Assembly: GCA_029255365.1 (NCBI GenBank)
Contig: JAPFQF010000055.1
Coordinates: forward strand, 1 to 33,248
Source: Candidatus Nitrosopumilus sp.
GTDB taxonomy: Archaea; Thermoproteota; Nitrososphaeria; Nitrososphaerales; Nitrosopumilaceae
Length of the DNA stretch: 33,248 nucleotides
Direction of reading: 5' to 3'
In this document: positions 4,550 to 28,588 of the stretch, piece after piece
Numbering within the stretch: the stretch's first letter is position 1
Layout of the letters: every line of letters begins with the position of its first letter
The notes under the pieces: generated by a model
Databases searched by the model: none
What the model saw: the letters and a program-made list of their open reading frames with translations, nothing else
Told to the model about the DNA's origin: nothing
Translations under genes and position numbers: made by a program

Positions 4550-6643
4550 ATGCGACTTAGAAAATTCAGAGTTAGAGCATATCGTTGCATTCATGATTCT
4601 GGAGAAATAACAGTTGGCGATTTGGCAGCTTTTGTAGGAAGAAACGAGAGTGGAAAAACCACAATTCTCCAAGCTTTGACATTGTTGAACAGAGACGAGA
4701 TAGTTTCTGAATTGGATCTTTGTGATGAAATGAATGAGGAGTTGAAAGAGGAGATGAGGCTAGTCGAAGGCGAATTTAATTTAAACCAACATGAAATCAG
4801 CATTATTAGAGAAAAATTTCCAGGATTGCCAGAAATTAAAAAAATAAAACTGTTCAGAACAAATCAAAACCCCAGGGTGCAGTACGAGTTTGAAGACATT
4901 GAGCTCAGCGAAGATTCCAACAAAGGGATTAACTCGTGGGAAAACTTTTCAAGACAGATATTTGGATTTTTAGACACCATTCCAAACCACCTAAGAATAC
5001 AAATCGATACAAGGTTCTTTGAGGAAGACGTACCCAAAAACCAAGAAACTTTTGACAGCGGAATGGCAGAGTTTAGCAATCAATTCCACGTAATAGCCAT
5101 CCAGGAACCCAAAGTGATTGAGGAGTGGGAAAAAATCTACGAGAGTCCAGGAAACCAGTTTTCAAATCTTCTAAGCGGCGAAAGCGAAAAATCAGCGCTG
5201 CAGAACTTTATTGCGGCGGAATTACATCCAAGATTCGTATACTTTTCAGACTATAAAAAAATCTACGGCAACATCAACCTCAACGAATACCTGAAGGAGG
5301 AAAGAGGGGAGCGAGCGGATTCGATTGAGTTTGTCGAAGAGTTTGACAAGGCCGAGACAGTAAGGAATCTGTTCTACCTGGCAGAACTGGACATGATAGC
5401 ATTAGATAAGGTGAAAGAAAGCCCTTCAAAGTGCATCAAGCTTCTCAACGCGGCAAGCAACAGGCTGACTAGAAAATTAAACCCCGCATGGAAAGGCGAT
5501 CCAATTCACGTTGACTTGAGATACAGCCCTGGAAACATCATGAGTGTTGTAATTTCAGACGTCCACAAAGACGGGACGATTACCAATACAGGATTGCTAA
5601 ACAGAAGGGCGGAAGGTTTCAAATGGACATTTTCATTCATCGTAAACTTTGCAGCTGAAACACAGAGGGCGGAATTGAAAGAGGCAATATTGCTTTTAGA
5701 CGAACCTGCAAGGAATCTTCACCCGACCCAGCAAATGGGAATTTCGGATTTGTTGAAAAATTTGGCAGGATCAAACCAGGTACTGTACGCAACACATTCA
5801 CCGTTCATGATATTTGACTACACTCCGGGCAACCTGCTGGTTGTTGAATTGGACAAGAGGAAGCACCTCAGTAAAATCTTTTATGATTATTGGAATGCAG
5901 ACGATAAAACGCTGACACCTATTTTGTACGGACTTTGCAGGGGTCAAGTTGAATCAATAGTGGACAGAGAAATAGGAACAAACTCCAGACCCATCATCAT
6001 CGTGGAGACAATGTCAGATGCCATGTATCTTAACGCATTTGACAAGTTCTTGCAGGATCCAAACATCTCAATGAATCCCCTTAACGTGATTGCAGCATAT
6101 AACAAAAATTCAGTGCTGCCATTAGCGATATTTTATAGAAATCACGGATACAGGACATTTGTTTTGCTGGACAATTCAGAAGAGTCCAAGCAAATCTCAT
6201 CCCAGCTAGTATCAAACGAATTTTCATCAGTTCAGACCATCTTTTTTGAAAGAGAAGGAAAGAAGCTCGAATCAATTGAGGATTACATCGCCTTGGAAGA
6301 TTATTTGTATCCGGTCAATCAAACGTACGAAATAAAGCTAAGACGGGAAGGATTTTCAAATCTTACGCCTCAAGACACCGAATCCAAAGAAGGTAAGGGA
6401 GTTCTAGAGAAATTAAGAAAGATATGGCAAGAGCACCGAGATGACGACTGGGGGGAATTTAACAACGAGGAGATCACAAGATACATTTGTGAGAAGATCA
6501 CCCTTGAAGAGACTAGCTTCCTGTCAGACAAAACCAAAGACCAGTTCAGGTCACTATACAGACTAATCGCCGAGCGAATCAGACAATATCAAAACGTGGT
6601 AACAAAAAAAGACCTGGATAGGTTCCAAAAGGCAAAAGCCTGA
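4550..6643 (+). CDS. OLD-like AAA ATPase with C-terminal Toprim domain
   Basis: The 697-residue protein has an ABC/SMC-type ATPase head: Walker A GRNESGKTT (30-38), a signature-like segment NRRAEGFKWTFSF, Walker B LLLDEPARNLHP with D384 and E385, and a switch histidine in YATHSPF. A Toprim-like nuclease region follows, with IIIVETMSDAMYL (E486) and FVLLDNSEES (D541), then SIEDYIALEDY. This is the plan of OLD-family nucleases, several of which act in anti-phage defence or DNA repair. The usual DxD of Toprim reads DNS, so nuclease activity is uncertain. No UvrD/GajB-type partner is adjacent. The ATG at 4550 starts directly on the ATPase beta strand. Function here is unknown. Confidence 0.8.
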   Translation: MRLRKFRVRAYRCIHDSGEITVGDLAAFVGRNESGKTTILQALTLLNRDEIVSELDLCDEMNEELKEEMRLVEGEFNLNQHEISIIREKFPGLPEIKKIKLFRTNQNPRVQYEFEDIELSEDSNKGINSWENFSRQIFGFLDTIPNHLRIQIDTRFFEEDVPKNQETFDSGMAEFSNQFHVIAIQEPKVIEEWEKIYESPGNQFSNLLSGESEKSALQNFIAAELHPRFVYFSDYKKIYGNINLNEYLKEERGERADSIEFVEEFDKAETVRNLFYLAELDMIALDKVKESPSKCIKLLNAASNRLTRKLNPAWKGDPIHVDLRYSPGNIMSVVISDVHKDGTITNTGLLNRRAEGFKWTFSFIVNFAAETQRAELKEAILLLDEPARNLHPTQQMGISDLLKNLAGSNQVLYATHSPFMIFDYTPGNLLVVELDKRKHLSKIFYDYWNADDKTLTPILYGLCRGQVESIVDREIGTNSRPIIIVETMSDAMYLNAFDKFLQDPNISMNPLNVIAAYNKNSVLPLAIFYRNHGYRTFVLLDNSEESKQISSQLVSNEFSSVQTIFFEREGKKLESIEDYIALEDYLYPVNQTYEIKLRREGFSNLTPQDTESKEGKGVLEKLRKIWQEHRDDDWGEFNNEEITRYICEKITLEETSFLSDKTKDQFRSLYRLIAERIRQYQNVVTKKDLDRFQKAKA

Positions 6644-6708
6644 GATTTAAGAAGTTTGCTCATGAAAAACACTAAATTAAGAAATAGGGAAAATGGTTTA
6701 AGGGATAG

Positions 6709-8865
6709 ATGATGGAATTAAATTGCATGAGTAGATCCTCCACCAGAGGAATTTTCCTTTCAGTCGCATTGTTATTTTCAGTTGTGCTAGTCATGTTTCC
6801 ATCAGATGCCCATGGCGAAGAAATTTCAGTTACAAGTATCGCATTAGAGGAAACAACCGTACTGGAATTGACAAATGATTCAACGGAGGAGATCAGCACT
6901 CTAAGAATCTGGCTTGGAAGCGATTTTAATTTTAAATCTTTTAAAACTGAAAAAGGATGGACCGGTGAGAAAAATGCACAGGGGGTCATCATTTTCACAT
7001 CATCCAAAGTCATCAAACCAGGCGAGTCTGTAAAATTTGGAGTGAAAACCGACAAACCAAATGAAGGGATCAATTGGAAAGTGCTTGACAAAAAAGATAC
7101 GCAGATAGACACTGGAAAATCCATTGCAAAAGACTTGCCACCAGTCAAAAATCTGGACCAAATCCAAAGTTCAGAAAATACAGGGAAAAGCATGCTAACA
7201 GAATCAACGTTCAGGGTAGTTCCAGAAAAACCAAATTCAGGTTCAACAATCAGAGTGACAGGGGATAATTTTGGCTCATCGCAAGAGTTTGATTTTTTCA
7301 TAGACACGAAAAAAATAGGCAGTTTTGAGACAGACAAAGACGGTCATTTTATCACTACGATGAAAATTCCAGAAAACCAGGATGCAGACAGAGTCGATTT
7401 TAAAATAGTAGGTAAAAACGGCGAGGAGAAAAAAATCAGCATCAGGTTGGGTGTGATTGATAACAGAATTCCCGCATCATCAGACATCCCACTCACGGTT
7501 AAAGGAATTCCAGGCACGATCCACAGAGGGGACTTTTTAGAGATTTTTGGAACTGCAACGCCAGGCAGCGGAGTCACAATAGAGATTTACGGACTGGACG
7601 GCGAGATAATCAGGACAAGGGCGGCAGAAACAGACAGCAAGGGAAATTGGAAATTGGAACCACTGCTGGTCCCGTTGGATAGGCCATTTGGAAAATACAC
7701 AGGAATTATTTCAGACGGAAGAGCAAACGAATCAGTCTACTGGGAATTGTCGTCAGATAAAAAAATCATCATAGTTCCAACAAGTTTGAAATTTGATCAG
7801 GGGGAGACAATGAAGTTTAACGGCACCGCCTTGCCAAACATTCCAGTAGAATTTGTTTTGGAAGATCCGCTTGGAAAAGAAATTGCTTCAGACATTATCC
7901 AGGTTGACGGCTCTGGAAATGTAAAGTACGAGCACCCAACCACACAAAATACGCTAAAAGGAACATACACGCTGATTGCAACTCAAGAAGAAAACAAAGA
8001 ATTCATCTATGCAGGAGTTGGACAACTGCCTACAATTCCAGTCAACTTGAAATTTGACAAGTTAAATTACAAAACAAGCGAATCCGCAGTCATCACATTG
8101 TCAGGAAAGGCATCCGAAATCATCAGTTTGCTAATCATTGATCCTTCGGATAAACAAAAAGGGGAATCACTGTCAATCACACTGCAGCCAGACGGAAGAG
8201 GTACACATACTCTAGATCTGCAAGGGTATTCCTCAGGGATATACACGGCAGTGGCCAGTAAGGGAAACGTCAAGAGTACGGAAATTTTCACAGTAGGTCT
8301 GCAAATTGGTTCTGGTTCAATTGACATCAACACTACAAAAGTGGCATATAGCCCAGGAGATCCAATATTGGTTTTGGGCGACGCGGGTTCCAATGTTCTT
8401 CTAACTCTGACACTTTTGGACGAAGACGGAAAAGTGATCAAAGTCAAAGAGACGTTTTCAAACAAAGATGGAAGAATTTTCGAAAGTGAGTTTAGAATTC
8501 CATCAGATGCCGAACCAGGAACCTGGACATTAAACGCAAAAAGCGGTTCAAATTATGACAATGTGAAGATCGATATCGTGACATCGGCAGTTGAAGGGAT
8601 GGGTGTGTCAGTAGAACAGGGGGAGAAGATTGCAAGTACGGGAACAGAAACTCTCCAAATCAAAGTATTCGGGGCAGAACAAAATGTAAAAATTGTGGTT
8701 GTGTCAGAATCCGGAGAGGTCATCGGCGAAATGAACGGCATAATTGCGGACGATGGAAGAATCGACATGGTTTGGCCAATTCCAAATGATACAGAGCCCG
8801 GGACATATACGATCAGGGCGTCAACCGCATCGGATTCGGCAGAAACCACGTATGAATTGCAATAA
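6709..8865 (+). CDS. Large secreted surface protein with about six tandem immunoglobulin-like domains
   Basis: The 718-residue protein opens with a signal peptide (hydrophobic core around residues 15-32, likely cut after SDAHG). The first beta domain (about 40-140) is followed by roughly six repeats of 80-90 residues. Each starts with a 'gd.i.i.G.a..' strand and ends with 'GtYt....', as in PFGKYTG, LKGTYTL, SSGIYTA, EPGTWTL and EPGTYTI. This is the pattern of MG2/Ig-like stalk domains in archaeal cell-surface proteins. No C-terminal membrane segment or sorting signal is visible, so it may attach to the S-layer or be released. It has its own TATA-like box (ctaaattaag, 6670-6679). The start could be the ATG at 6709 or 6727. 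The binding partner is unknown. Confidence 0.8.
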   Translation: MMELNCMSRSSTRGIFLSVALLFSVVLVMFPSDAHGEEISVTSIALEETTVLELTNDSTEEISTLRIWLGSDFNFKSFKTEKGWTGEKNAQGVIIFTSSKVIKPGESVKFGVKTDKPNEGINWKVLDKKDTQIDTGKSIAKDLPPVKNLDQIQSSENTGKSMLTESTFRVVPEKPNSGSTIRVTGDNFGSSQEFDFFIDTKKIGSFETDKDGHFITTMKIPENQDADRVDFKIVGKNGEEKKISIRLGVIDNRIPASSDIPLTVKGIPGTIHRGDFLEIFGTATPGSGVTIEIYGLDGEIIRTRAAETDSKGNWKLEPLLVPLDRPFGKYTGIISDGRANESVYWELSSDKKIIIVPTSLKFDQGETMKFNGTALPNIPVEFVLEDPLGKEIASDIIQVDGSGNVKYEHPTTQNTLKGTYTLIATQEENKEFIYAGVGQLPTIPVNLKFDKLNYKTSESAVITLSGKASEIISLLIIDPSDKQKGESLSITLQPDGRGTHTLDLQGYSSGIYTAVASKGNVKSTEIFTVGLQIGSGSIDINTTKVAYSPGDPILVLGDAGSNVLLTLTLLDEDGKVIKVKETFSNKDGRIFESEFRIPSDAEPGTWTLNAKSGSNYDNVKIDIVTSAVEGMGVSVEQGEKIASTGTETLQIKVFGAEQNVKIVVVSESGEVIGEMNGIIADDGRIDMVWPIPNDTEPGTYTIRASTASDSAETTYELQ

Positions 8866-25471: not shown

Positions 25472-26068
25472 TTGAAAGTGAGTTGTGACAAGGAAGGGAT
25501 TGAGAATGCCTCTAAAATAATCAGCCAGGGAGGAATTGTAATTTTTCCAACAGATACTGTTTATGGCATAGGATGTGATCCGTACAATAAAGAGGCAGTA
25601 GAAAAAATCTACAAAATAAAATCCAGAGACATTATAAAATCGGTTCCGATTTTAACATATTCTACAGAGGCAGCTGAAAGAATAGCCCAGTTTGATCAAC
25701 TTGCTAAAAAAATTGTTAAGAAGTTTTGGCCCGGTCCACTAACATTAATTCTAAAAGTTACAGATCAAAAAATGAAAAAATCCCTGAATCTAGAAAACAA
25801 AATTGCCGTCAGAGTTCCCAATCACAGATGCACGTTAGAATTATTAAAAAAATGCAATTATCTTGTTGGTACTAGTGCAAACATTTCTGGAGATCTGCCA
25901 CATACAAATCCAGAAGAATGTTTGGAAAAAATGCAAAATTACGATATTTTTGTGGACGGTGGCATAATTACAAGTAATGGAGAATCGACAATCATTGAAA
26001 TAGAAAATGAAGAAATCAAAATTATCCGGGAAGGTTCTTTAACTAAAGAAGAAATTTTACAATCATGA
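25472..26068 (+). CDS. L-threonylcarbamoyladenylate synthase (Sua5/YrdC family)
   Basis: It makes threonylcarbamoyl-AMP from threonine, bicarbonate and ATP, the activated intermediate of tRNA t6A37. The 198 residues are a single YrdC-type domain without the C-terminal Sua5 extension. Seen are IVIFPTDTVYGIGCD, KIKSRDIIKSVPI (catalytic KxR), FWPGPLTLIL, IAVRVPNH and LVGTSANISG. The start is TTG at 25472. It overlaps the Tan1 gene by 4 bases. The product is consumed by KEOPS, whose subunit Cgi121 is encoded next door. Confidence 0.92.
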   Translation: MKVSCDKEGIENASKIISQGGIVIFPTDTVYGIGCDPYNKEAVEKIYKIKSRDIIKSVPILTYSTEAAERIAQFDQLAKKIVKKFWPGPLTLILKVTDQKMKKSLNLENKIAVRVPNHRCTLELLKKCNYLVGTSANISGDLPHTNPEECLEKMQNYDIFVDGGIITSNGESTIIEIENEEIKIIREGSLTKEEILQS

Positions 26069-26586
26069 ACCTCATAATTACTTGTCCCAGGCATTTTGAA
26101 CCAGAAACGGAGGGGGAATTAATCGACATTTTGGAAGAACTTGGAGATTCTGATGCCAAAATTACAATCACAAACATGTCAGGAATTCTAACAGCAGAAA
26201 CAAAACTTGATCCAATAGAAACTGTAAGGAAAATCAAAGAAATGCTTCTTGATGAACCATGGAGTGTCAGATATTGTAAAAGGATCATACCGATACAAAA
26301 AGTCATTGAATCAAAAATTGAAGAAATAGAAAAAAGTGTAGAAGAGATGTCCAATCAAATTTTAGATGAGGAAACATATAGAATATCAGTTGAAAAAAGA
26401 AATTCAGAGTTATCAAGTAAAGAGATAATCACAAAAATAGCAAATAAAATAAAAAACAAAGTATCACTTGAATTTCCAGATAAAGTTCTATTGATTGAAA
26501 TCCTAGGCAATAAAACAGGAGTGTCTATTCTAAAAAAATCAGACATACTAAGTACAGAAAAGACAAAACGAAGTATGTCAGAGTAA
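26065..26586 (+). CDS. THUMP-domain protein, Tan1-like tRNA acetylation adaptor
   Basis: The 173 residues open NLIITCPRHFEPETEGELIDIL and include LDEPWSVRYCKRIIPIQKVIE. The later portion (TYRISVEKRNSELSSKEIITKIANKI, with VSLEFPDKVLLIEILG) is the THUMP RNA-binding fold. In yeast Tan1 and human THUMPD1, this domain helps make ac4C on tRNA. It is coupled to Sua5 (4-base overlap) and convergent with the Cgi121 fusion (9-base overlap). Whether it works with a Kre33/TmcA acetyltransferase in this organism cannot be told from the window. Confidence 0.85.
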   Translation: MNLIITCPRHFEPETEGELIDILEELGDSDAKITITNMSGILTAETKLDPIETVRKIKEMLLDEPWSVRYCKRIIPIQKVIESKIEEIEKSVEEMSNQILDEETYRISVEKRNSELSSKEIITKIANKIKNKVSLEFPDKVLLIEILGNKTGVSILKKSDILSTEKTKRSMSE

Positions 26587-27351
26587 TACTGCAGCTTTCT
26601 CAATCAACAGATCAGCCAGAGGGTTTTTGGAACAGATCGAATCAGTGTGCCTCTTTGTTATTTTGAAATGTTTTTTTAAATACATCTCATTGTTTTTCGA
26701 GAAGATATTTGTAGAAATTGGAAGCAATTCAAGGTACAGGGAGTGTAGGGTTTTTCTATTTCCCATAGCAATGATGAAAAAATTAATTCCAGATTTTATT
26801 CCAACTGTACTTATCGCATCGGAAATTTGTTTAGTTAAAGCAAATCTCATCAAAATGTCAGTTTCAAGTTTATTTGAAAGCAAAATATTATTTTTTTGCG
26901 ATTCAATTGATAGCGAAATAATTTTTTTCAAATGGTAGTTATTTAAAACAAAATCACACGATACAGCCTGAAGTGCCAGTCCAGGATATTTTTTTCTGAG
27001 ATCGTCAATAAATTTTACATCGATTGACTTTTGACCTTTAATCTCTAGGATTTGTATTATTTTTTTAGAATATTCAAAAGTAATTTTTTTGGACAAACCG
27101 CCATGAATGACAGGGATTATACTTACAACATCATTGTCTTTTATTTCTGTTAATTTTCCATCCATGGCAGAGGAATCAGCCCCGTTGACTGCGATTAAAA
27201 CATTGTCAGTATCAAGTTTAGGAGTATCCAGAGGTTTTAGTTCCAAGAGCAAAGCGATTAGTTCTTGAATTGTTACATTTGACTTGTCAATTTTTAAAAG
27301 TTCAATTGGAAAAGACTTTTTCGCACCGCCGACAAATTTTACAGTAAACAT
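26578..27351 (-). CDS. Ubiquitin-like (MoaD/Urm1) domain fused to KEOPS subunit Cgi121
   Basis: Residues 1-85 are a beta-grasp domain: MFTVKFVGGAKKSFPIEL, VTIQELIALLLEL, VLIAVNGADSS, then DVVSIIPVIHGG with G84-G85. This is the MoaD/ThiS/Urm1 pattern, but the diglycine is internal and is followed by LSKK. Residues from about 120 to 257 match Cgi121 (the small KEOPS subunit that helps bind tRNA): AVSCDFVLNNYHLKKIISLS, ILLSNKLETDILMRFALTKQ, ISDAISTVGIKSGINFFIIA, and LADLLIEKAAVLL at the end. The segment 85-120 (KKITFEYSKKIIQILE) is a linker or KEOPS N-terminal strand. It starts with ATG at 27351. The fusion links sulfur-carrier-type ubiquitin proteins with t6A synthesis. Confidence 0.8.
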   Translation of the reverse strand: MFTVKFVGGAKKSFPIELLKIDKSNVTIQELIALLLELKPLDTPKLDTDNVLIAVNGADSSAMDGKLTEIKDNDVVSIIPVIHGGLSKKITFEYSKKIIQILEIKGQKSIDVKFIDDLRKKYPGLALQAVSCDFVLNNYHLKKIISLSIESQKNNILLSNKLETDILMRFALTKQISDAISTVGIKSGINFFIIAMGNRKTLHSLYLELLPISTNIFSKNNEMYLKKHFKITKRHTDSICSKNPLADLLIEKAAVLL

Positions 27352-27389: not shown

Positions 27390-27704
27390 TTATTCAGTTT
27401 CGTCTTCGGCAGTTTCGTCCTCGTCTTCAGCAGTTTCGTCCTCGTCTTGACCAAGTTCTACTTCAGATCGTTTTTCAAATTGTTGTTCAGATTTTGATGC
27501 TTCAATTCGGGCTTGTTTCTCTTTGGCCTCGCGGATTTCTTTTTTAATGAATTTTGTGATATAGCCCGCAATTTTATTTTTCAAGCTTTTAGAACGCACA
27601 ATTGAAACTTCGTTCAGGGCTTTTTTATTATCGGTAAAATCTGAACCAAATTTTGCTTTGTGATCTACAAGAACTTCATATGAAAGTCGCTTTATTCTAT
27701 CCAC
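27390..27704 (-). CDS. 30S ribosomal protein S17e with acidic repeat tail
   Basis: The 104 residues begin MDRIKRLSYEVLVDHKAKFG and continue NKKALNEVSIVRSKSLKNKIAGYIT. This is the S17e core, normally about 60-70 residues. A lysine-rich helix and an acidic tail with repeated EDEDETA units follow (about 85-104). The tail probably lies outside the fold. Its DNA shows an imperfect repeat of gtttcgtcctcgtcttcagc. The start is GTG at 27704. Acidic extensions are a known trait of some archaeal ribosomal proteins. The role of this one is unknown. Confidence 0.85.
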   Translation of the reverse strand: MDRIKRLSYEVLVDHKAKFGSDFTDNKKALNEVSIVRSKSLKNKIAGYITKFIKKEIREAKEKQARIEASKSEQQFEKRSEVELGQDEDETAEDEDETAEDETE

Positions 27705-27736: not shown

Positions 27737-28492
27737 CTATATTCCAAGATATGAATTTGAATTCATTTCTAGCAAATATGCCATTTCATCAAAAGATTTA
27801 CCCAAAATTTTCGAAGCACAAAAAATTACACTGGGGATAAAGCTGACTTGCCCAGACTTCATTTCAAAACATCTGGAAAATCTCACCGGACCGTCAGTTT
27901 CAACAAGGATTTGGGATTCGTCAGTTTTAGACAATAAAGTTTGCTTGTCATTTGCATAGATTGCTACAGGCCCATAGGATACAAAAAATCCCATATCCAT
28001 TGCTTTTTGAAGTTGTTTTTTGCTTCCATCAAACCAATGTAACAGCGCATGTTTTGTATCATATGAAGTCATGATTTCAAAAACATCGTCAAGGCTTTTT
28101 CTTGAATGGATGGATACGGGTTTGTTGAATTTTTCTGCAAAGGATAACAGCGTTTCAAATACTTTATTTTGCTTTTTTGCATCTTCATCTTGTTTAACAT
28201 ATGTGGGATCCAATCCAATTTCCCCTATTCCAGAAATATGTTCGTGGTGTTCTTCAATCAGTTTAGAAATATTTTCAAGTTCTTCATTTGCACATTCAGG
28301 GTGAATTCCGATAAAAGGCAGTATCAAATTACTTTTTTTTGCAAGTTCCAAAGTTTGTAACGAGTTATCGTAATTCATGGAAACGCAGCACGCTTTGATT
28401 TTCAAACATTCCATTTGCTTCAAGATAAATTCCATGTCAGAAACATATTCAGGATCTGACAAGTGTACATGAGAATCAAAATACCACGTCAT
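27737..28492 (-). CDS. TatD-family metal-dependent deoxyribonuclease
   Basis: The 251-residue metal-dependent amidohydrolase-fold protein shows the metal ligands FDSHVHLSD (H8, H10), IGEIGLDPTYV, SIHSRKSLDDVFEIM, LLHWFDGSK and LVETDGPV. TatD enzymes are exo-/endonucleases linked to DNA repair and turnover. An upstream GTG at 28555 would add 21 residues. The ATG at 28492 is preferred because it sits just before the conserved opening, with a TATA-like tttata upstream. It is divergent from the histone gene. Confidence 0.88.
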   Translation of the reverse strand: MTWYFDSHVHLSDPEYVSDMEFILKQMECLKIKACCVSMNYDNSLQTLELAKKSNLILPFIGIHPECANEELENISKLIEEHHEHISGIGEIGLDPTYVKQDEDAKKQNKVFETLLSFAEKFNKPVSIHSRKSLDDVFEIMTSYDTKHALLHWFDGSKKQLQKAMDMGFFVSYGPVAIYANDKQTLLSKTDESQILVETDGPVRFSRCFEMKSGQVSFIPSVIFCASKILGKSFDEMAYLLEMNSNSYLGI

Positions 28493-28588
28493 TTCTTTGT
28501 CAATTGTTGAAATAGTCTGTATAAATCGATTCCTTAGTGATATTTTTTCACTCACTATCTTTTTTCGGAAAAAATTAAAAGAAAATCC

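Follow-up and report, generated by a model that had tools for sequence, protein, structure and literature searches.

A conserved internal HGG motif between a Urm1-like domain and Cgi121 in Nitrosopumilaceae as the candidate processing site of a proposed two-in-one precursor

What can a ubiquitin-like protein do when the diglycine through which it should act is buried within a longer polypeptide? This question is raised by a gene in the window analyzed here, a stretch of 33,248 nucleotides of Candidatus Nitrosopumilus sp. (assembly GCA_029255365.1, contig JAPFQF010000055.1). A single frame of 257 amino acids (minus strand, 27351-26578) encodes a ubiquitin-like (Ubl) domain followed by Cgi121, a subunit of KEOPS. 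ThiS/Urm1/MoaD Ubls are recognized by a C-terminal Gly-Gly, and as encoded the pair is internal here (residues 84-85 of 257). From established Ubl chemistry, an internal GG cannot be adenylated, and the Ubl must therefore either be inert as a carrier or be released. The relevant features are the following.

26578..27351, minus strand: Ubl-Cgi121 fusion gene, 257 aa (open reading frame and translation; Pfam ThiS and CGI-121)
27097..27351, minus strand: ThiS/Urm1-like beta-grasp domain, residues 1-85
27097..27105, minus strand: HGG motif (residues 83-85) at the junction, where cleavage is predicted (321/321 rows; pLDDT <50)
26581..27090, minus strand: Cgi121 domain, residues 88-257
27390..27704, minus strand: ribosomal protein S17e, in the same orientation as the fusion gene and 38 bases upstream of it (Pfam Ribosomal_S17e)
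27737..28555, minus strand: TatD-type hydrolase, at the head of the probable operon (Pfam TatD_DNase)
26065..26586, plus strand: THUMP-domain protein, presumably Tan1-like, convergent with the fusion gene with a 9-base end overlap (Pfam THUMP)
25472..26068, plus strand: Sua5/TsaC, L-threonylcarbamoyladenylate synthase (TIGR00057, 175 bits; cut-off, 123)

An earlier note, made from the DNA letters, had read the gene as a MoaD/Urm1-type domain joined within one protein to Cgi121 through an internal GG, and all of this holds. The Pfam ThiS match covers residues 14-85 and is above its cut-off, while the CGI-121 match covers residues 125-239 (PF08617, 26.9; cut-off, 25). By NCBIfam the whole protein is a Cgi121 (NF011465, 154 bits; cut-off, 40), and database names reflect both parts. 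The AlphaFold model contains two well-folded domains (mean pLDDT, 92.2; pTM, 0.74), of which the C-terminal one matches the Cgi121/TPRKB fold by Foldseek and VIA-align and the N-terminal one the Urm1/MoaD fold, with MoaD and Urm1 in a tie. The latter fold is that of Urm1 from yeast, Chaetomium, Trypanosoma, and Sulfolobus, and HGG is common to the fusion and the aligned Urm1 chains of Trypanosoma and Sulfolobus. Native Urm1 ends in GG; the residues past GG in the aligned chains are presumably a tag. What sets the Ubl half apart from Urm1 is that it scores under the family cut-offs (PF09138, 17.8 versus 21.8; NF053661, 24.8 versus 70), and hence we call it Urm1-like only.

The two halves are close together. 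Residue 1 of human TPRKB falls at residue 88 of the model in two entries (6wqx_A and 3enp_B), so that the linker would consist of HGG plus two or three residues only. The Cgi121 half can be compared with MjCgi121, for which Phe21, Lys56, Met60, Gln71, Ile72, and Gly80 were mutated as residues contacting the tRNA CCA end (PMC7718258; this and the other published sources are cited from partial texts). By eye, Gln71, Ile72, and Gly80 correspond to Q175, I176, and G184 of the fusion, which are invariant in both of our alignments (A1 and A2), whereas Lys56 is offset by one (K161) and Met60 is lost. Judging from these invariant equivalents, the Cgi121 half looks functional.

The junction itself is the most constrained part of the protein. 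HGG was kept in all 321 fused rows, 318 of them different, a sample biased to close relatives that consists of 241 proteins (P0001 to P0241, being the query with the best 120 of 1557 and the best 120 of 1318 matches) and 80 named loci chosen from 178 relatives. It was also invariant among the 22 diverse proteins of A1, with identities down to 38%, and was present in genomes G061, G147, and G148. Directly after HGG, 13 different residues occur among the 321 rows (best 120 of each search plus the 80 loci). In the 84-row alignment A2, mean column entropy was 0 for HGG and 2.24 bits for linker residues 86-93, compared with 1.27 for the Ubl core and 1.45 for Cgi121, making the Ubl core the better conserved of the two domains. 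Across 115 loci, all four Gly codons were found at each glycine and both codons at the histidine; since synonymous codons vary, the invariance of HGG is held by selection.

The AlphaFold model has a single segment of three or more residues with a pLDDT below 50, residues 83-85, so that HGG is dispensable for either fold, and the motif is predicted to be unordered rather than docked on Cgi121. Recognition in trans is the best explanation for a motif that stays invariant although it is unordered and unneeded by the folds. Taken together, sequence and model show two complete domains joined at an invariant GG where the chain is predicted to be flexible, the arrangement expected of a precursor fusion processed by JAMM.

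We consider it probable, from sequence, model, and analogy, that the protein is a precursor cut after HGG, presumably by a JAMM protease, which would separate a Urm1-like carrier from an otherwise normal Cgi121. The gene would be translated as Ubl-HGG-Cgi121, a two-in-one precursor. Cleavage would follow the second glycine, and the likeliest enzyme for it is either of the two JAMM metalloproteases of the genome. The freed 85-residue Urm1-like protein, with its HGG end exposed, would then be activated by the E1 of the cell and act as a sulfur carrier, with tRNA thiolation as the likeliest client, or as a protein modifier. The freed Cgi121 would begin near the usual Cgi121 start, join KEOPS, and bind the tRNA CCA end. 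Cleavage, its enzyme, the activation of the released domain, and its client are the steps that we infer, and we propose the feeding of tRNA thiolation less firmly than precursor processing as such.

Processing is favored, with moderate confidence, because JAMM-mediated release has direct precedents. HvJAMM1 cuts a linear SAMP1-MoaE fusion exactly behind its last Gly, and cleavage of SAMP1-MoaE lacking GG went undetected in vivo; the internal GG of this fusion is likewise stated not to be adenylatable (PMC4443979). Similarly, a natural MoaD-MoaE fusion is a substrate of DRJAMM (PMC8832034), as SAMP precursors are of the Caldiarchaeum enzyme CsJAMM (PMC6043591). The GG is weakened as a JAMM signature by the citation of HvJAMM1 as not needing a diglycine for linear fusions (PMC8832034), and HGG could also be kept for contact with another part of KEOPS. 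The Haloferax construct (PMC4443979) and the natural Deinococcus protein (PMC8832034) resemble the present fusion in having an N-terminal Ubl, a GG junction, and a second functional subunit, with a JAMM protease and an E1 in the genome. They differ in that the partner here is a KEOPS subunit instead of MoaE and that the cleavage is a prediction. The earlier note had named both a structural module and release by cleavage after GG; the second fits the evidence better.

Among the sampled genomes, the fusion is a property of one family. We surveyed 61 Nitrososphaeria genomes, that of the window (86% complete) and 60 others at least 95% complete, of which 49 belong to a family (f1) taken as Nitrosopumilaceae. 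In 48 of these 49 a single frame carries both the ThiS and the CGI-121 match, compared with two frames in G014, and the fusion is absent from all 12 sampled genomes outside the family. In the three genomes of f2 (probably Nitrosocaldaceae) the Ubl gene lies directly upstream of that for Cgi121, as it does in two of the three of f3 (probably Nitrososphaeraceae), the third having them apart. One gene separates them in both f4 genomes, they are adjacent in one f5 genome, the other having no CGI-121 match, and the two f6 genomes have neither a ThiS nor a CGI-121 match. Overall, the two are at most one gene apart in eight of the nine non-family genomes having both, some of these matches being under the Pfam cut-offs (CGI-121 in G003 and G004; ThiS in G001 and G003). 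The free Ubls of these families end in HGG*, HGGS*, HGGCL*, or HGGCLRYDGEVE*, that is, HGG plus up to nine residues. In both f4 genomes, the intervening gene looks by eye like a phosphoribosyltransferase (L060 3439-4029 and L061 3311-3880, both minus strand).

Within Nitrosopumilaceae, a wider survey of 137 genomes, all at least 90% complete save that of the window, found the Ubl in 135. In 132 it lies within a single frame 245 codons or more in length; of these, 48 plus 4 (G061, G137, G147, and G148) were checked for Cgi121 in the same frame, and for the rest its presence is inferred from frame length. The remaining matches are split genes (G014 and G128) or cut by a contig end (G118), and no Ubl match was obtained in G067 and G146. 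The earlier note had suggested surveying separate against fused copies, and for the genomes drawn the answer is: fused in Nitrosopumilaceae and separate, usually neighboring, in the other sampled families.

A tree of 40 Ubl domains, from which the last three residues (the motif) and the very long row OTH_f4_G001c were left out, bears on the origin of the fused domain. A branch with 99/95 support separates every one of the 20 HGG rows, which are either fused or drawn from the S17e/Cgi121 neighborhood, from MoaD-like and E1-associated Ubls (AGG, SGG, CGG, and DGG). Fused and free rows are not cleanly separated within the tree (FUS, 3 changes; ADJ, 2); two f4 rows fall among the fused ones, and ADJ_f5_G003 forms a long branch. 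Because the HGG rows group together, the fused domain most likely derives from a free Urm1-like gene of the same neighborhood.

The tether has also been lost again. In G014 the gene reads HGGA, then TGA, then an in-frame TTG; this split is real, given that an identical 86-aa protein is listed with five contigs (P0242) and that related proteins end in the same way (P0243 to P0247). Among 57 short homologues, 16 end zero to two residues past HGG and the other 41 end 4 to 66 residues past it. We counted only the 16 as likely splits, several being near-copies, since some of the 41 are contig ends or sequencing errors, as exemplified by P0251 of Nitrosotenuis chungbukensis, which breaks 19 residues past HGG. 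In G128 a frame shift follows seven residues past HGG, with Cgi121 in another frame, and the protein clusters P0283 and P0294 have nearly the same end. Cgi121 was seen downstream in both split loci read (G014 and G128). A tree computed from 82 columns, with many weakly supported forks, comprised 38 fused rows, 10 split rows, and 5 outgroup rows. In it, split rows lie among fused ones and require four changes, at least two of them forced by well-supported branches. The recurrence of splits within the fused family implies that the tether is dispensable. The place of the stops near HGG is partly to be expected, as a stop would be tolerable only in the short linker, and the splits thus show only a dispensable tether and the retention of both domains. 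All but one (P0249) of the 16 likely splits carry one or two residues past HGG, and another group carries seven, so that split Ubls too would need trimming.

A separate feature of the junction concerns its reading frames. In the window, the His codon CAT followed by GG creates an ATG in the +1 frame (C-ATG-G, within 27097-27105), and in the split gene of G128 (L183) the Cgi121 frame seems to pass through the ATG of the +1 frame at HGG. A slip in the linker could, as read from these codons, give a Ubl plus a restarted Cgi121.

The main alternative to a processed precursor is that the protein stays intact and the Ubl acts as a built-in regulator of KEOPS. This would amount to SAMPylation in a permanent or reversible form; the domain may guide Sua5, tRNA, or another partner, with HGG as a contact site. 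The Ubl is indeed within one long frame in 132 of the 135 family genomes with a match, the invariance of Q175, I176, and G184 makes the Cgi121 part look functional, KEOPS SAMPylation has been proposed by Makarova and Koonin (PMC2948915), and in Haloferax the linkage of SAMP1 to MoaE is inhibitory to the enzyme (PMC4443979). Such a regulator is nonetheless hard to reconcile with a tether that was lost more than once while the Ubl was retained and that is absent in the other sampled families, or with an HGG predicted to be unordered and not docked on Cgi121, and we regard it as unlikely, if the strongest of the competing readings.

Gene order bears on a second alternative. Among 48 family loci (L005-L052, including G014, fetched as short stretches), S17e is upstream of the fusion in 47 and the convergent THUMP gene downstream in all 48; within these short stretches TatD was seen at 45 loci and Sua5 at 36. 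By these counts Sua5, to whose proximity the earlier note had rightly drawn attention, is a conserved neighbor, though on the opposite strand. Much of the same gene block exists outside Nitrosopumilaceae, with Ubl and Cgi121 as separate genes. Conceivably, the two parts have no functional tie, a stop between operon neighbors having been lost by chance in the Nitrosopumilaceae ancestor and the Ubl being freed for a pathway of its own. Adjacency without fusion in other families fits this, as does G039, a natural break between the parts in which the Ubl is still with TatD and S17e and Cgi121 is elsewhere with THUMP and Sua5. Against it, at most one gene separates the two in eight of nine non-family genomes having both, and a fusion of no use to either half ought to have come apart more frequently; we consider chance joining improbable. 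Ubiquitin-type domains can help folding, and a degenerate Ubl that merely aids Cgi121 folding or solubility is thus imaginable, but a Ubl core conserved above Cgi121, an invariant HGG, and the survival of split Ubls as separate proteins make this very improbable. In G039, a KH-type-looking protein follows the Ubl in place of Cgi121 (L059 2319-2897, minus strand; L058).

A processed precursor requires partners, and the genome of the window, which carries the fusion, holds both a JAMM protease and an E1. Its two JAMM genes, at L003 1435-1872 and L004 1447-1845, are on contigs other than that of the fusion and carry HSHP...S..D, which we take to be the JAMM motif. Both have a haloarchaeal desampylase as best NCBIfam match, below the cut-off (54.9 and 24.8 bits versus 130). 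These scores and the separate contigs count against the proposed processing. At least two Prok-JAB (JAMM) matches occur in each of the 49 family genomes, and a JAMM gene adjoins the E1 gene in two non-family genomes, G010 (Ubl-E1) and G004 (E1 without Ubl) (L153 and L154). TIGR00269, presumably a family of Ncs6/TtuA-type tRNA thiolases, has a match in all but one of the 61 genomes (missing in G020), and its protein is a plausible client of the released Ubl.

The two ThiS matches in the genome of the window are the Ubl-Cgi121 fusion and a 443-aa Ubl-E1, and the only ThiS matches in the 49 family genomes are the Cgi121 fusion (split in G014) and, in 43, Ubl-E1. No standalone ThiS-type Ubl was found at E values up to 0.01 in 48 of them, the 49th (G014) having the split. 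With TIGR01687 (E up to 1), the weak matches in family genomes that reach GG are all in frames of at least 249 codons, among the matches listed (to about E 0.3); a free Ubl of very divergent sequence could have escaped at this limit. We propose, tentatively and at slightly less than even odds, that most Nitrosopumilaceae have no Ubl with a free tail and that both Ubls, on Cgi121 and on E1, are freed by JAMM proteases, which would tie carrier supply one-to-one to a t6A subunit and make the fusion an archaeal counterpart of ubiquitin-ribosomal protein fusions.

The absence of E1 from some genomes requires comment. ThiF is missing from 32 of the 137 family genomes, and from 6 of the 49 of the smaller draw, with HGG retained. 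We considered this as evidence against E1 use and dropped it, since contigs break at this place and single-contig genomes all have E1, so that the absence is mostly an assembly effect. The E1 gene follows his-like genes and adjoins an S-layer-like gene. We tested 23 of the E1-less genomes, and from 13 the hisF-like gene (E up to 1e-80) is missing as well; among the other 10, nine have contigs that end within about 3 kb past the hisF-like gene, the E1 start being visible in G100 and G111. Only G037 continues into other genes without E1 and may represent a true loss. E1 is present in 24 of 24 single-contig genomes, and all 32 E1-less genomes are multi-contig.

The eukaryotic ubiquitin-ribosomal protein fusions of the UBA52/RPS27A type also place an N-terminal Ubl on a translation-related protein, although the partner is unrelated, there is no sign of common origin, and processing is here predicted only. 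Caldiarchaeum is an archaeal lineage related to that of the window. Its SAMP precursors are likewise Ubl precursors, cut by a JAMM protease there where a cut is predicted here, but they are not described as fused to an enzyme subunit in the available text (PMC6043591).

The fusion itself is not new. The earlier note had thought a link between a Ubl and t6A synthesis to be novel; in fact, Makarova and Koonin described the Ubl-Cgi121 fusion and its S17e neighbor in 2010, from all Thaumarchaea then available, and proposed KEOPS regulation by SAMPylation (PMC2948915). Theirs is the same protein family with the same S17e neighbor, found in Nitrosopumilus, and differs in distribution, the fusion being absent here from the other sampled families. 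The conserved internal GG, the splits, and processing are not treated in the portion of that paper at hand, and in the open-licence literature we found no other paper whose available text names the fusion. We add its distribution, the conservation of HGG, the recurrent splits, and the inventory of Ubls and JAMM proteases. The conserved hinge and the recurrent splits make the 2010 observation simply testable, the questions being whether a cut follows HGG and which JAMM makes it. Should cleavage occur, the Ubl of these ammonia oxidizers would depend for its function on proteolytic release and, provided that it serves as a sulfur carrier, t6A formation by KEOPS and tRNA thiolation would be fed from one gene.

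Some observations on the E1 region deserve mention in their own right. The Ubl-E1 fusion has been published (PMC2948915; PMC11237513). In the genome of the window, this second fused Ubl has AGG followed by SEEL (L002 424-1755, minus strand), and a threonine-synthase-like gene (L002 1755-2969, minus strand; TIGR00260, 287 bits) has one base in common with it. A threonine-synthase-like gene is beside E1 in 13 of 15 E1 loci; we assume that the pair may form a CysO/HcyS-like protein-thiocarboxylate route to an amino acid. The E1 pair lies by his-like genes at L145 to L152, L155, L156, L159, and L160 to L169, with an S-layer-like gene in several. Many metagenome-assembled contigs break at this region, and E1 and hisF-like genes consequently seem absent from near-complete genomes. 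In G036 the E1-associated Ubl is separate (L158 7371-7673, minus strand), ends eight residues past AGG, and overlaps the E1 frame (6242-7408, minus strand); in G046 and G049, of the same genus, Ubl and E1 are in one frame, so the second Ubl fusion is also found split.
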